From assembly GCF_900112205.1 (NCBI RefSeq), contig NZ_FOKW01000006.1, forward strand, positions 62,001 to 126,000: 64,000 bases of DNA, in the 5' to 3' direction. The translations under genes and the position numbers were made by a program. This document shows positions 27,855-32,554 of this stretch, one piece after another. The DNA comes from Natronobacterium haloterrestre (GTDB lineage: Archaea; Halobacteriota; Halobacteria; Halobacteriales; Natrialbaceae). Position 1 is the stretch's first letter. Each line of letters opens with the position of its first letter. The notes beneath the pieces were generated by a model. That model saw only the letters and a program-made list of their open reading frames with translations, was not told where the DNA came from and did no database searches.

Positions 27855-27961
27855 CGGCCGGGGATTGGTAAGCAGCGGTGAAAAACGCTCCGCAGCCGGT
27901 AGCCGAGAACCGGGTTCGAAGTCGGAAAGACCTATTTAGCCAGCGCCGGCATTGTGATACA

Positions 27962-29194
27962 ATGGACGTGAGGGGGCTGTGGGCCCTGCTCTGTGTGTTC
28001 GTGGTGGTCGGGTGCTCGGTGGCGTTCGTTCCGTTCACGGCGGCCGCGGTCGATGGTGTCGGCGAGGTCGGCGGCCAGGTCGACGCCGACCGCGAATCCG
28101 GTGCCGGTGTCGCTCCCGCGGTCGCACAGGCGGCACAGCAGGAAGAGCCGGCCGAGATCGACCAGCTCGACGATCCCGACAAGGTCCACATCGAGGTCTA
28201 CATCCACGAGAACGGGTCGGCGACGTTCGTCGTCGACTACCGGTTCGAAAACGGCTCGGAGTCGAACTGGACCGCCCTCCGGGACGACGTCGAGGAGTAC
28301 CCCGAAATGTACGCCCAGCAGGAGGCGAGCGGCTGGAACGAGACGCTCGAGGAGGCCAGGAACGCGACCGGCCGGGACCAAATGGAGATCGGCAACGTGT
28401 CGGTCGCCACCGACAGGACCACCGCACCACAGGAGATCGGCCACGTCGAGTTCACCTTCGAGTGGCATTCGTTCGCCTACGTCGAACTGAACAGGATCGA
28501 CGCGGGCGACGCGCTGGCCGGGTTCACGCTGTCGGACGACACGACGATGCGCCTGTTCCCGCCCGAAGGGTACGTCATCGGGGAGGTCGAGCCGACACCC
28601 GACGACCGCCCCGACAACTCGGTCTTCTGGAACGGGGACGACACGGAGTTCGCCGACGACGAGCCGTACGTCGAAATCCTCGAGAACGGCGGCGCGACCG
28701 CCCAGGAGGACGAACCCGATGCGGGGCCGGACGACCCGTGGCCGATCGTCGTCGCCGTGCTCGCGCTCCTGGCGACCGTCGCCGCGGCCGGCTGGTGGAT
28801 TCGCCACCAGGAGATCCTGGCCCCGAACGTGGAGACGGAGCGCGAGGCGGACGCGAACGGTGCCGGCGACGCCGATTCCGGAGCAACCGGGAGCGGAACC
28901 GACGCCGGAGCCGGTCGGAACGGGCCTGCCGAGGGACCGCCGCCGGAACTGCTGAGCAACGAGGAACGCGTGCTCCGACTGCTCGAGCAACGCGGCGGCC
29001 GGATCAAACAGCAGGACGTCGTCTCTGAACTGGGCTGGACCGAGGCCAAGACGAGCCAGGTGGTCGGCGGACTGCGGGAAGACGGCGACATCGAGGTCTT
29101 CCGAATCGGCCGGGAGAACGTCCTTGCACTTCCGGACGAGGGCGGCGAAACCGGCGACGTCGACGACACGGGTAGCGGGCGCGAGGACGCGTAG
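27962..29194 (+). CDS. membrane-anchored winged-helix regulator
   Basis: 410 residues from the ATG at 27962. Signal peptide (LWALLCVFVVVGCSVAF), an extracytoplasmic beta-rich domain (about 55-255), one transmembrane helix (WPIVVAVLALLATVAAAGWW, about 260-280), a disordered Asp/Gly linker, then a C-terminal winged helix: LLSNEERVLRLLEQRGGRI, QQDVVSELGWTEAKTSQVV, and GGLREDGDIEVFRIGRENV. It follows the haloarchaeal pattern of one-component transmembrane regulators (DUF7345 + wHTH, by recall). The sensed signal is unknown. Confidence 0.85.
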   Translation: MDVRGLWALLCVFVVVGCSVAFVPFTAAAVDGVGEVGGQVDADRESGAGVAPAVAQAAQQEEPAEIDQLDDPDKVHIEVYIHENGSATFVVDYRFENGSESNWTALRDDVEEYPEMYAQQEASGWNETLEEARNATGRDQMEIGNVSVATDRTTAPQEIGHVEFTFEWHSFAYVELNRIDAGDALAGFTLSDDTTMRLFPPEGYVIGEVEPTPDDRPDNSVFWNGDDTEFADDEPYVEILENGGATAQEDEPDAGPDDPWPIVVAVLALLATVAAAGWWIRHQEILAPNVETEREADANGAGDADSGATGSGTDAGAGRNGPAEGPPPELLSNEERVLRLLEQRGGRIKQQDVVSELGWTEAKTSQVVGGLREDGDIEVFRIGRENVLALPDEGGETGDVDDTGSGREDA

Positions 29195-29250
29195 CGAGTC
29201 CCGTCGCGCTGGATCTCCCGCCGGTCGTAACATTTGCGCCGCAGACAGGT

Positions 29251-29257
29251 TTTAATA
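29251..29257 (+). promoter_or_regulatory. upstream TATA box in front of the Arg-rich ORF
   Basis: TTTAATA ends 24 nt before the ATG at 29282, the spacing expected for a leaderless archaeal mRNA. The same heptamer serves argG itself. Confidence 0.6.
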
Positions 29258-29281
29258 CGTGGGAGCGATACTCGTCCAGTA

Positions 29282-29374
29282 ATGAGCCGATCCGTCGGGT
29301 CCGCGCTCACCCTTTTCCGTACCGACGGGTCCGTCGCCCAGCGGCGACAGCGGCGACCGCGACCGGGCCTTTGA
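29282..29374 (+). CDS. short arginine-rich ORF, possible leader peptide
   Basis: 30 codons with ATG 24 nt behind a good TATA box. Seven codons are arginine, five of them clustered near the end in AQRRQRRPRPGL, using CGG and CGA. The TGA lies inside the loop of a perfect 5-bp GC stem. It stands before argG, so an arginine-sensing leader peptide is conceivable; equally it could be chance. No homologue known to me. Confidence 0.35.
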   Translation: MSRSVGSALTLFRTDGSVAQRRQRRPRPGL

Positions 29375-29439
29375 GCCCGTACTATACTATCACCCCTGTC
29401 CCCCGGCCGCTTCGCTTCCCCGAAAACCCTCGTTTTCAC

Positions 29440-29459
29440 GGTTAGAGTGCACTCTAACC
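29440..29459. promoter_or_regulatory. perfect 20-bp palindrome before argG
   Basis: GGTTAGAGTGCACTCTAACC is a perfect inverted repeat with no spacer. It ends 27 bp before TATA box 2 of argG, roughly where archaeal activators bind, but would also block transcription from TATA box 1. Candidate site for an arginine-responsive dimeric regulator. Confidence 0.65.
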
Positions 29460-29521
29460 TTAGTTTTCGTAAAATAAATCGGTGAATTTAATACCCTTCT
29501 GCCGTTTGATTCGGATACGAC

Positions 29522-30796
29522 ATGACCCGCGTGGCACTCGCGTTCTCGGGCGGACTGGACACCACAGTCTGTGTCCCGCTGCTCGAGGAAGAATACGGAT
29601 ACGACGAAGTGATCGGCGTCACGGTAGACGTCGGCCAACCGGAATCGGAGTTCGAGGAAGCAGAAGAGACCGCCGAGGCCCTCGGCCTGGACCACTACGT
29701 GGTCGACGCGAAGGCGGAGTTCGCCGACCTCTGTCTCGACGGCGTGCGTGCGAACGCGACCTACCAGGGCTATCCCCTGGGCACCGCGCTCGCGCGTCCC
29801 GTGATCGCCGAAGCGATCCTCGAGGTCGCGACGGAACAGGACTGTGACGGCGTCGCCCACGGCTGTACGGGCAAGGGCAACGACCAGCTGCGTTTCGAGG
29901 CCGTCTGGCGCGACTCGGACCTCGAGGTCATCGCGCCCGTACGCGAACTCGGTCTCACCCGCGACTGGGAAAAGCAGTACGCCGCGGAGAAGGACCTCCC
30001 CGTCGAGGGCGGCAACGAGGGCGACTGGTCGATCGACACGAACCTCTGGAGCCGCTCGGTCGAGGGCGACGAACTCGAGGACCCGAGCTACGTCCCCTCC
30101 CCGGAGATCTACGACTGGACGGCCGAACCGACGGGCGAGAGCGAGGAGATCGAGATCGCCTTCGAGAACGGCTACCCCGTCGCGGTCGACGGCCAGGAGT
30201 ACGACCCCGTCGAACTCATCGAGTACCTGAACGACCTCGCGGGCTCCCACGGCGTCGGCCGCACCGACGTGATGGAAGACCGCATGCTCGGGCTGAAGGT
30301 CCGCGAGAACTACGAACACCCCGCGGCGACGACGCTGCTGAACGCCCACGAGTCCCTCGAGGGGCTCGTCCTCACCCAGGAGGAGCGCCAGTTCAAACAG
30401 CAGATCGACCAGCAGTGGGCCCAGAAGGCCTACGAAGGGCTCGTCGACGCGCCGCTCGTGGGCGCGCTCGAGGGCTTCATCGCCAAGACCCAGGGGCGCG
30501 TGACGGGGACGGTGACGATCCGCTTCGAGGGCGGCAAGGCCCGCCCCGTCGCTCGTGACAGCGAGTACGCCGCGTACTCGGCCGACCACGCCTCCTTCGA
30601 CACCGAGACGGTTGGCAAGATCGCCCAGGAGGACGCCACGGGCGTCGCGAAGTACCACGGGTTCCAGCGTCGCCTCGCGAACGGCGTCCTCGAGAACGAC
30701 GACGACGAGACGGCCGAGGGCGACCCCGTCGAACTCGCGACCGATGGCGGAACGGTCGACGCCGCGGACGCGGGCAGCACGGAGGACGACCAGTAA
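29522..30796 (+). CDS. argG: argininosuccinate synthase
   Basis: 424 residues. Joins citrulline and aspartate using ATP. Begins with the pyrophosphatase loop ALAFSGGLDTTVCV; later HGCTGKGNDQLRFE binds ATP and citrulline, and SYVPSPEIYDWT is family-typical. The last ~30 residues are an acidic extension. Two bases separate its stop from argH. Promoter: TTTAATA at 29487-29493, 28 nt before the ATG, with the palindrome further up. Confidence 0.97.
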   Translation: MTRVALAFSGGLDTTVCVPLLEEEYGYDEVIGVTVDVGQPESEFEEAEETAEALGLDHYVVDAKAEFADLCLDGVRANATYQGYPLGTALARPVIAEAILEVATEQDCDGVAHGCTGKGNDQLRFEAVWRDSDLEVIAPVRELGLTRDWEKQYAAEKDLPVEGGNEGDWSIDTNLWSRSVEGDELEDPSYVPSPEIYDWTAEPTGESEEIEIAFENGYPVAVDGQEYDPVELIEYLNDLAGSHGVGRTDVMEDRMLGLKVRENYEHPAATTLLNAHESLEGLVLTQEERQFKQQIDQQWAQKAYEGLVDAPLVGALEGFIAKTQGRVTGTVTIRFEGGKARPVARDSEYAAYSADHASFDTETVGKIAQEDATGVAKYHGFQRRLANGVLENDDDETAEGDPVELATDGGTVDAADAGSTEDDQ

Positions 30797-30798
30797 CG

Positions 30799-32283
30799 AT
30801 GTCCGAGGAGAGCGCTCAGTTCGGCGGACTCGGCGATGACGGCGGCGACGAGAGCGTCGTCCGCCGGGATCGATTCAGCGGCGGCCCCGCCCGGAGTTTC
30901 CTCTCCTCACTCGAGGCCGACGAGCGAATCTTCGAGGCCGACCTCGAGGTCGACCGCGCACACGTCGTGATGCTCGCCGAACAGGGGATCATCGCGGACG
31001 ATATCGCGGGCGAGATCCTGACGGCGCTGGATACGATCGAGGTCAGCGGCCACGGGAGCCTCCCCGAGGGCGAGGACGTCCACGAGGCGATCGAGACGGC
31101 CGTCATCGACCGCGTCGGCGAGGACGGCGGGAAGATGCACACCGCCCGTTCGCGCAACGACGAGGTCGCGGCCTGCATCCGCTACCGCCTGCGCGAGGAC
31201 GTCCTCGAGGCGATCGAGACGACCCTCGCGCTGCGCGAGTCGCTATGTGAGGTGGCCGACGCCCACGCGGAGACGGTCATGCCCGGCTACACCCACCTCC
31301 AGCCCGCCCAGCCGACGACGGTCGCCCACTGGGCGCTCTCCTACGAGTCCGCGGTTCGCCGCGACACCGCACGGCTGTTCGGGGCCTACGAGCGGATCAA
31401 CGAGTCGCCGCTCGGGGCCGCGGCGTTCGCGGGGACGACATTCGACGTCGACCGCGAGCGCACGGCCGAGTTGCTCGGCTTCGACGGCGTCGTCGAGAAC
31501 TCGATGGACGCCGCCTCGAGCCGCGACTTCCTGCTCGAGACGGTCCAGGCGCTGTCGACCCACGCGACGACGCTGTCCGGACTGGCCGAGGACGTCGTCG
31601 TCTTCGCGAACCGCGGCTTCGTCGACCTCGCGGACGACTACGCCTCGACGTCGTCGATCATGCCCCAGAAGAAGAACCCCGACACGCTCGAACTCGTCCG
31701 TGCGGTCGCGGGCGACGCCGCGGGCGCGGTCCAGGGGCTGACGACGACCCTCAAGGGGCTCCCCCGCGCGTACAACCGCGACCTCCAGCGCGCGACGACC
31801 CACGCCTGGGAGACGGCCGACGCCGTCACCGAGGCGAGCGAGGTCGCCGCGGGCGCGATCGCCACGGCCGACTGGAACGAGGACGCGCTCGCGACGGAGG
31901 CCGGCGAGGGCTTCTCGACGGCGACCGGCGTCGCCGACCTGCTGGCCGCGAACGGCCTCCCCTTCAGGACGGCCCACGAGATGGTCGCGGTCGCGGCCGA
32001 AAACGGGGGCGACTACGACGCCCTCGAGGCCGCCGCCGCCGACGTCCTCGGCGAACCCCTCGAGTCGTTCGTCGATCCTGCGGCCGTCGAGGACGCGCTC
32101 GATCCGGCCGAGAGCGTCGCGAGTCGCGACTCGACCGGCGGCCCCGCGCCCGAGGCAGTGGCCAGCCAGCTCGAGTCCGCGAACGCCGCGCTTGCGGACG
32201 ACAGGGGATCGCTCGCGGAGAACCGGACCGCGCTCGAGGACGCTTACGAAGCGCTTCGTTCCGAGGTGAACGGGTATGTCTGA
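30799..32283 (+). CDS. argH: argininosuccinate lyase
   Basis: 494 residues. Cleaves argininosuccinate to arginine and fumarate. Fumarase/aspartase superfamily signature SSIMPQKKNPD (catalytic Ser) plus HTARSRNDEVA and GYTHLQPAQPT. An insert rich in Ala/Glu lies in the C-terminal third (about 410-470). Cotranscribed with argG. It is followed by a 271-bp gap with its own promoter elements before lysW. Confidence 0.97.
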   Translation: MSEESAQFGGLGDDGGDESVVRRDRFSGGPARSFLSSLEADERIFEADLEVDRAHVVMLAEQGIIADDIAGEILTALDTIEVSGHGSLPEGEDVHEAIETAVIDRVGEDGGKMHTARSRNDEVAACIRYRLREDVLEAIETTLALRESLCEVADAHAETVMPGYTHLQPAQPTTVAHWALSYESAVRRDTARLFGAYERINESPLGAAAFAGTTFDVDRERTAELLGFDGVVENSMDAASSRDFLLETVQALSTHATTLSGLAEDVVVFANRGFVDLADDYASTSSIMPQKKNPDTLELVRAVAGDAAGAVQGLTTTLKGLPRAYNRDLQRATTHAWETADAVTEASEVAAGAIATADWNEDALATEAGEGFSTATGVADLLAANGLPFRTAHEMVAVAAENGGDYDALEAAAADVLGEPLESFVDPAAVEDALDPAESVASRDSTGGPAPEAVASQLESANAALADDRGSLAENRTALEDAYEALRSEVNGYV

Positions 32284-32554
32284 GACGCGACGACCGACCG
32301 GAGTAGTGCCACGGATACGGTCGCCACCGCGGCCGTCCCCACCGGGACGCGGACGCGAACGCGAACGCGGACGGGGCCCTCGGTTCCCGTCGCCGCGGCC
32401 GTCCCCGTGAGGGGACTATTATACACTAAATGATACACTGGATCAGAAATGCGGTAAATTAGTCCTTTCACGCCGTTAGCGTAGCATGCAGTACTATAAT
32501 TTTTCTGTTAGGTTCGAAGCCTTTAAGGGGTATCGCCTCCCAGTCGGGAGTACA
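32284..32554 (+). other. 271-bp control region before lysW
   Basis: Holds hexamer-like GC repeats (GGACGCGGACGCGAACGCGAACG at 32343-32365 in part), then an AT-rich zone with two copies of ATACACT (TATACACTAAATGATACACT, around 32420-32439), a TATA-like CTATAATTTTT near 32503, and the promoter TTTAAGG (32522-32528). CTCCC-AGTC-GGGAG (32537-32550) is an inverted repeat between that TATA box and the lysW ATG at 32555. Confidence 0.6.

Follow-up and report, generated by a model that had tools for sequence, protein, structure and literature searches.

A conserved arginine-codon leader precedes argGH in the Halobacteriales: comparative evidence for a putative leader-peptide attenuator

We report a short, arginine-rich open reading frame that precedes argG throughout the order Halobacteriales and is very likely a leader that regulates through its cognate codons, a conclusion based on comparative evidence with no expression data. 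Taken as a whole, the system is probably a ribosome-mediated, amino-acid-specific leader-peptide attenuator, and this reading is again comparative, there being no expression, ribosome or termination data behind it. That the regulated step is the read-through of transcription is inferred rather than shown, and we prefer it by a modest margin. The anatomy itself is established: a short ORF whose message is predicted to be leaderless, a covarying first stem, Arg codons in a row up to the base of a GC hairpin, the stop codon within that hairpin, some 18 nt without G and, about 150 nt further on, argG. The initial annotation of this DNA had called such attenuation scarcely described in archaea; according to a paper of 2021 none was known there (PMC8448881), and we found no archaeal leader of this type in the literature that we searched, which did not cover subscription papers and preprints.

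The leader was recognised in a stretch of 64,000 nucleotides from Natronobacterium haloterrestre, here called the window, in which its features are arranged as follows (all on the forward strand; the basis of each is given in brackets).

29251..29257, +, leader TATA box TTTAATA, its first base 31 nt 5' of the ATG (read from the sequence)
29282..29374, +, leader ORF MSRSVGSALTLFRTDGSVAQRRQRRPRPGL, 30 codons with a TGA stop (sequence; order-wide conservation; pN/pS)
29289..29331, +, stem-loop 1, within the 5' half of the ORF, with arms at 29289-29298 and 29322-29331 (stem statistics)
29342..29362, +, regulatory Arg codons RRQRRPR, codons 21-27 (in-frame Arg enrichment)
29364..29379, +, stem-loop 2, CGGGC-CTTTGA-GCCCG, around the stop codon (sequence; folding z; Arg-stem distance)
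29380..29397, +, G-free tract TACTATACTATCACCCCT, 18 nt, directly 3' of stem-loop 2 (composition across leaders)
29440..29459, +, perfect 20-bp palindrome GGTTAGAGTGCACTCTAACC, between the leader and the second argG TATA box (sequence)
29487..29493, +, second TATA box TTTAATA, 35 nt 5' of the argG ATG (sequence)
29522..30796, +, argG, argininosuccinate synthase (TIGR00032, 444.6 bits)
30799..32283, +, argH, argininosuccinate lyase (TIGR00838, 463.3 bits)

Stem-loop 2 starts 1 nt past the last Arg codon, and the TGA, at 29372-29374, lies in its loop. The initial annotation had described TTTAATA followed after 24 nt by the ATG of a 30-codon frame, which held to the base, and its further claims of seven Arg codons with five in the last ten, of a TGA in the loop of the perfect stem CGGGC-CTTTGA-GCCCG, of a second, identical TATA heptamer for argG (29487-29493) and of argGH as the genes behind the leader (TIGR00032, TIGR00838) held as well. 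It had overlooked stem-loop 1, the G-free tract at 29380-29397 and the near-universal conservation within the order. Because the TATA box and the ATG are 31 nt apart, first base to first base, transcription is predicted to start at or adjoining the ATG, giving a leaderless message. In the window argG also has a promoter of its own, which is a point against control by the leader. The palindrome GGTTAGAGTGCACTCTAACC may possibly be an operator, or regulator site, of this second promoter, since degenerate copies of it precede argG in other Natrialbaceae; this function is inferred.

A DNA search matched the leader interval in other genera. We located argG in 243 genomes of the Halobacteriales and read 80 upstream regions, giving 81 with that of the window, all within the order. 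A region counted if it had an ATG-initiated ORF of 18-45 amino acids whose final 12 codons included at least three for Arg, whose stop codon lay within a GC hairpin and which was preceded, at 27-35 nt, by a TATA box. These criteria were satisfied by 68 of the 81 regions and by 0 of 2430 dinucleotide shuffles, and 75 of the 81 have the TATA box, the ATG and the Arg-rich ORF. A second, named set of 78 loci, which partly overlaps the first and includes loci from Natrinema, Haloferax, Haladaptatus, Halorubrum and Natronomonas, satisfied them at 56. The genomes share ancestry, so that these counts are not independent events; the shuffles, the frame controls, the genome-wide specificity and the existence of three cognate amino-acid sets, described below, rest on more than shared ancestry. 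The initial annotation held that loss of the frame or of the Arg run in close relatives would refute it; both persist, and far beyond close relatives.

What is conserved is the architecture. The leaders are mostly 23-37 codons long and vary between genomes in sequence, length and number of Arg codons, and the N-terminal half of the peptide is not conserved; the Arg codons, the stop within the hairpin and the G-free tract of about 18 nt are constant. The leader of related Haloferax species, for example, reads MATRSTFATFAPLRAAAVRPRRRAL. Across 54 non-redundant leaders the TATA-to-ATG spacing is 30-34 nt with a mode of 31. The second argG TATA box is absent from 10 of 54 lineages, in which argG must therefore be read from the leader promoter.

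The exceptions are few. The stop codon upstream of argG falls outside the hairpin in G022, G178, G211 and L106 (Salinadaptatus), so that the Arg-rich ORF extends to 44-53 codons; the hairpin itself is clearly retained in L106, and these four are natural variants that could separate the roles of hairpin and stop. No matching argG leader was found in L158, L172 and L174, three MAG or draft loci, and the named plasmid records that we checked contain no haloarchaeal argG. Four loci of the Halohasta/Halonotius group (L127, L156, L162 and G173) carry an altered, conserved Arg-rich argG leader that ends in RQRRLRRLPRAGRPYVADLASF and lacks the usual stop-hairpin.

Several observations indicate that the Arg run is read codon by codon. 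Among the final 14 leader codons Arg accounts for 396 of 1078 in frame, against 183 of 1001 and 122 of 1001 in the two alternative frames, and pN/pS over 36 pairs is 0.69 for the true frame compared with 1.22 and 0.98 for the shifted ones. The number of Arg residues in those 14 codons ranges from 2 to 12, one genome having 11 in succession. The choice of codon is unusual: CGA and CGG together make up 79% of leader Arg codons, and CGA alone 48% compared with 9% in the genes of the window, which use CGC. A base gained in the hairpin loop (CTTTTGA for CTTTGA) is offset by the loss of one ahead of the stem (CGACGGGCC for CGACCGGGCC), which preserves the reading frame; leaders ending CGA CCG GGC CTT TGA and CGA CGG GCC TTT TGA differ by paired one-base changes flanking the hairpin. 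The shuffle, frame and specificity tests rule out the possibility, raised as a concern by the initial annotation, that the CGN codons arose by chance in GC-rich DNA. The distance from the last Arg codon to the core of the hairpin 2 stem is -2 to +4 nt in 53 leaders, and it is inferred from the size of the ribosome that one stalled on a codon so placed must cover the 5' arm.

The leader has the features of an RNA element as well. Relative to shuffles the mean folding z is -2.64 for hairpin 2, with 98% of leaders below -1, and -1.46 for the first half of the ORF; flanking controls are near zero, and the spacer between leader and argG has no folding signal (z near 0). A stem 1 of at least 8 bp is found in 63% of the 54 leaders, compared with 21% of codon-shuffled controls, and the sequences of its arms differ between genera. 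RNAalifold returned no pairs from a sequence alignment of the 54 leaders because stem 1, which varies in both length and sequence, is out of register there; the statistics were computed for each leader separately. Downstream of hairpin 2, G is absent from 16-22 nt in 51 of the 54 non-redundant leaders and then returns; the tract is a C-rich sequence of C, U and A with no U-run. Pairing of the Arg region with downstream RNA, as in the switch of a classical attenuator, did not rise above shuffles, and no mutually exclusive antiterminator could be demonstrated, stem 1 being present and no alternative pairing having been found for it. A search of Rfam 15 gave no covariance-model match to the leader; the sole hit, to ASdes at 29148-29217 (19.8 bits, threshold 40), lies outside the leader ORF and is at chance level.

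The pattern of stop-hairpin and G-free tract is specific. In its argG form it has 19 matches in 61 genomes and none in a reversed control, and at least 17 of the 19 correspond to argG leaders already read or found by the first DNA search. A single match, G023:C81:15524-15553 on the reverse strand (GGGCTAATGAGCCCTTCCTTTTATCCTCTT, L201), is unlike the argG leaders. When both strands of 2.4 Mb of genome G027 were scanned for a TATA box, an ORF, a stop-hairpin and a G-free tract, whatever the amino acids encoded, exactly two loci emerged, the argG leader and a leader of ilvB; a looser scan without the TATA box gave five loci, of which these two had the longest stems.

The ilvB leaders have the same architecture with a different set of codons. 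They are rich in Ile, Val and Leu, with ends such as LIIVGAA, IRIVGAY, GVRIVGAL and LALVLVGAL, and their stop codon lies in a hairpin of the form GGGGC-NNNNTA-GCCCC followed by a G-free tract. N. haloterrestre itself has one (L212, G000:C7, reverse complement), which reads MTGRASLSARTRGDSSAFAAIRIRIVGAY before its stop, lies 5' of the acetolactate synthase gene ilvB and has the stop in AGGGGC-GTACTA-GCCCCT together with a G-free tract. The GGGGC-type pattern has 70 matches in 194 genomes against 1 for the control. Thirty of these loci were cut out, of which 26 precede ilvB (by tblastn) and four precede the gene for valyl-tRNA synthetase. The valS leaders (L402, L403, L404 and L405, from four genomes) end in TVVVGAA, LVVVGAA, CSVVGAR and VFVVGAS, with the Val codons GTA-GTA and the stop in GGGGC-NNNNTA-GCCCC; one of the four loci was confirmed as ValRS by NCBIfam and the other three were read as evident homologues. 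In the ilvB and valS leaders Val and Ile are written chiefly as GTA and ATT, both almost unused in the genes of the window, and the regulatory codons are 0 nt from the hairpin in all 30. This recurrence of a cognate-codon logic within the same architecture is hard to explain other than by codon sensing. With the TATA criterion, no leader of the argG/ilvB type was found before trpD, trpC and hisG, for which up to 13 genomes were searched; it is possible that these genes are not the first of their operons.

In the mechanism that we propose, RNA polymerase would start at the leader ATG and a ribosome would load on the 5' end, stem 1 possibly slowing the polymerase as it does so. With ample Arg-tRNA the ribosome would reach the stop codon and leave, hairpin 2 would fold, and the transcript would end or be cut at the G-free tract, with little expression of argGH from the leader promoter. 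With Arg-tRNA scarce, the ribosome would stall on the CGA/CGG codons adjoining hairpin 2 and cover its 5' arm; with the hairpin blocked, transcription would run on into argGH. The leaders of ilvB, with Ile/Val/Leu codons, and of valS, with Val codons, would work in the same way. The proposal of the initial annotation, attenuation by stalling at Arg codons, is thus supported, with the transcription and translation of the leader, and read-through as the regulated step, remaining inferred.

Bacterial trp, his, ilv and pheST leaders are ribosome-mediated transcription attenuators, and several of the defining features of such leaders are met here: a short ORF between the promoter and the first structural gene (its translation being inferred), tandem cognate codons (Arg at argG, Ile/Val/Leu at ilvB, Val at valS) and a conserved hairpin adjoining those codons (its dependence on the ribosome being inferred from geometry). 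The two groups share the short ORF with tandem cognate codons, the leader hairpins and an occurrence before tRNA synthetase genes. The haloarchaeal leaders differ in that the ORF is predicted to be leaderless, with a TATA box 31 nt before the ATG, in having the stop inside the hairpin, in the absence of any antiterminator that we could find and in the G-free tract of 16-22 nt of C, U and A that stands in place of the U-run. The hairpin and U-run of the bacterial form is therefore a feature not met, and this criterion may possibly not apply to archaea. By analogy, the nearest systems in logic are the bacterial attenuators and above all the actinobacterial ilvB leaders, in which Ile/Val/Leu codons lie in a short ORF overlapping or adjoining a candidate terminator hairpin (PMC1262725). 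These share the codon set, the gene and the placing of the ORF at the hairpin, but belong to another domain of life and have hairpins followed by poly-U (PMC1262725). They also carry a warning: changing the regulatory codons of the ilvB leader in Streptomyces coelicolor brought no response (PMC1262725), a case that is unresolved and that implies that anatomy alone can mislead about function.

Haloferax volcanii terminators (a T stretch, and the hairpin S12; PMC7237163) have in common with the leaders that a hairpin can end transcription in a haloarchaeon, and one hairpin terminated 59% of transcripts in a test in that species (PMC7237163), but nothing in the relevant sections of that report connects them with an ORF, with amino acids or with a regulatory role. 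Termination at the G-free tract is not obvious, because the tract is C-rich and without a U-run, unlike the T-stretch terminators, nor is it an obvious site for the archaeal termination factor FttA, since FttA prefers U-rich RNA. Exclusion of FttA by a coupled ribosome has been proposed, not shown (PMC11616081). Compatible with the proposed mechanism, ribosomal proteins and RNA polymerase co-purify in haloarchaea, and transcription and translation appear to be coupled (PMC8576121).

The rival that deserves most attention keeps the same sensor and changes the output, the stalled ribosome governing the translation of argGH or the decay of its mRNA, for example through re-initiation or through shielding of the G-free tract from a nuclease, rather than termination. 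In its favour are the C-rich, G-free tract without a U-run behind hairpin 2 and the ten lineages in which argG is expressed only from the leader transcript and begins about 100-150 nt beyond the leader stop. Against it, the spacer shows no sign of folding (z near 0), the Arg region has no pairing partner that we could find, and the fixed 16-22 nt of G-free sequence at the hairpin would, we infer, better fit a constraint of the size of RNA polymerase. We regard this rival as unlikely, but it remains possible. Much less probable is arrest by the nascent peptide, in which an Arg/Pro-rich sequence would stall in the exit tunnel on free arginine in the manner of fungi. The fungal arginine attenuator peptide, of the upstream ORF of arg-2/CPA1, is a conserved peptide that controls translation; it shares with the argG leader a short upstream ORF before a gene of arginine synthesis, and its response to arginine is a feature of the fungal system. 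Basic, proline-containing C-termini (RRPRPGL, RRPRRPGL) are common among the leaders, as this rival would have it. The haloarchaeal peptide is variable, however, with Arg codons as its constant part: the C-termini include RPRPGL, a stretch of 11 consecutive Arg with GR behind it, and RRRAL, so that the criterion of a conserved arrest peptide is not met. Furthermore, the ilvB and valS leaders have the same RNA architecture with a different chemistry, and the non-preferred codons suggest that it is decoding, not the peptide, that is sensed.

Two further rivals are very unlikely. Were the leader a structured regulatory RNA, such as an arginine riboswitch, with an incidental ORF, one could understand that the two hairpins persist despite changes of sequence and that L106 retains hairpin 2 without the stop; this is opposed by the in-frame Arg enrichment, the frame-keeping indels, the varying number of Arg codons, a TATA box placed for a leaderless ATG, the lack of an Rfam match to the leader and the matching amino acids at ilvB and valS. 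Were it instead an independent gene for a small, Arg-rich, trans-acting protein that lies beside argG by chance, it would have its own promoter and a hairpin right behind the Arg run, as is seen, and argG would have a second promoter, as it does in most lineages. The ORF is next to argG throughout, however, the N-terminal half of its product is not conserved, and other operons have the same architecture with their own amino acid.

A bolder form of the attenuator reading is that the Halobacteria have a general, codon-specific attenuation (Arg at argG, Ile/Val/Leu at ilvB, Val at valS) that ends transcription at an undescribed archaeal signal, the stop-containing GC hairpin with 16-22 nt of G-free sequence; we lean towards this, without great confidence. 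If true, archaea would have their first case of attenuation, together with functional evidence that transcription is steered by translation in this domain, and it would follow that archaea with mostly leaderless messages can use the logic of bacterial attenuation. The codon-matched leaders extend across an order that is experimentally tractable and are thus directly testable; they offer natural sensors of amino-acid supply for archaeal genetics and point to a possible new archaeal termination or pausing signal.

The surroundings of the operon may also be described. The gene 5' of the leader (27878-29194) has DUF7345 and DUF7343 domains and likely encodes a membrane-anchored helix-turn-helix protein; it is apparently the upstream neighbour in close relatives also. 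On the 3' side of argH there is a hairpin, GTCCCC-GTGA-GGGGAC (32402-32417), followed by an AT-rich stretch, and a TATA-like TTTAAG (32519-32530) lies 5' of argW, a LysW-like carrier (PF21344). It is likely that the argGH unit ends and the next arg unit begins here. The end of argH is overlapped by an Arg/Pro-rich ORF of 44 codons, which has its stop in the GTCCCC-GTGA-GGGGAC hairpin.
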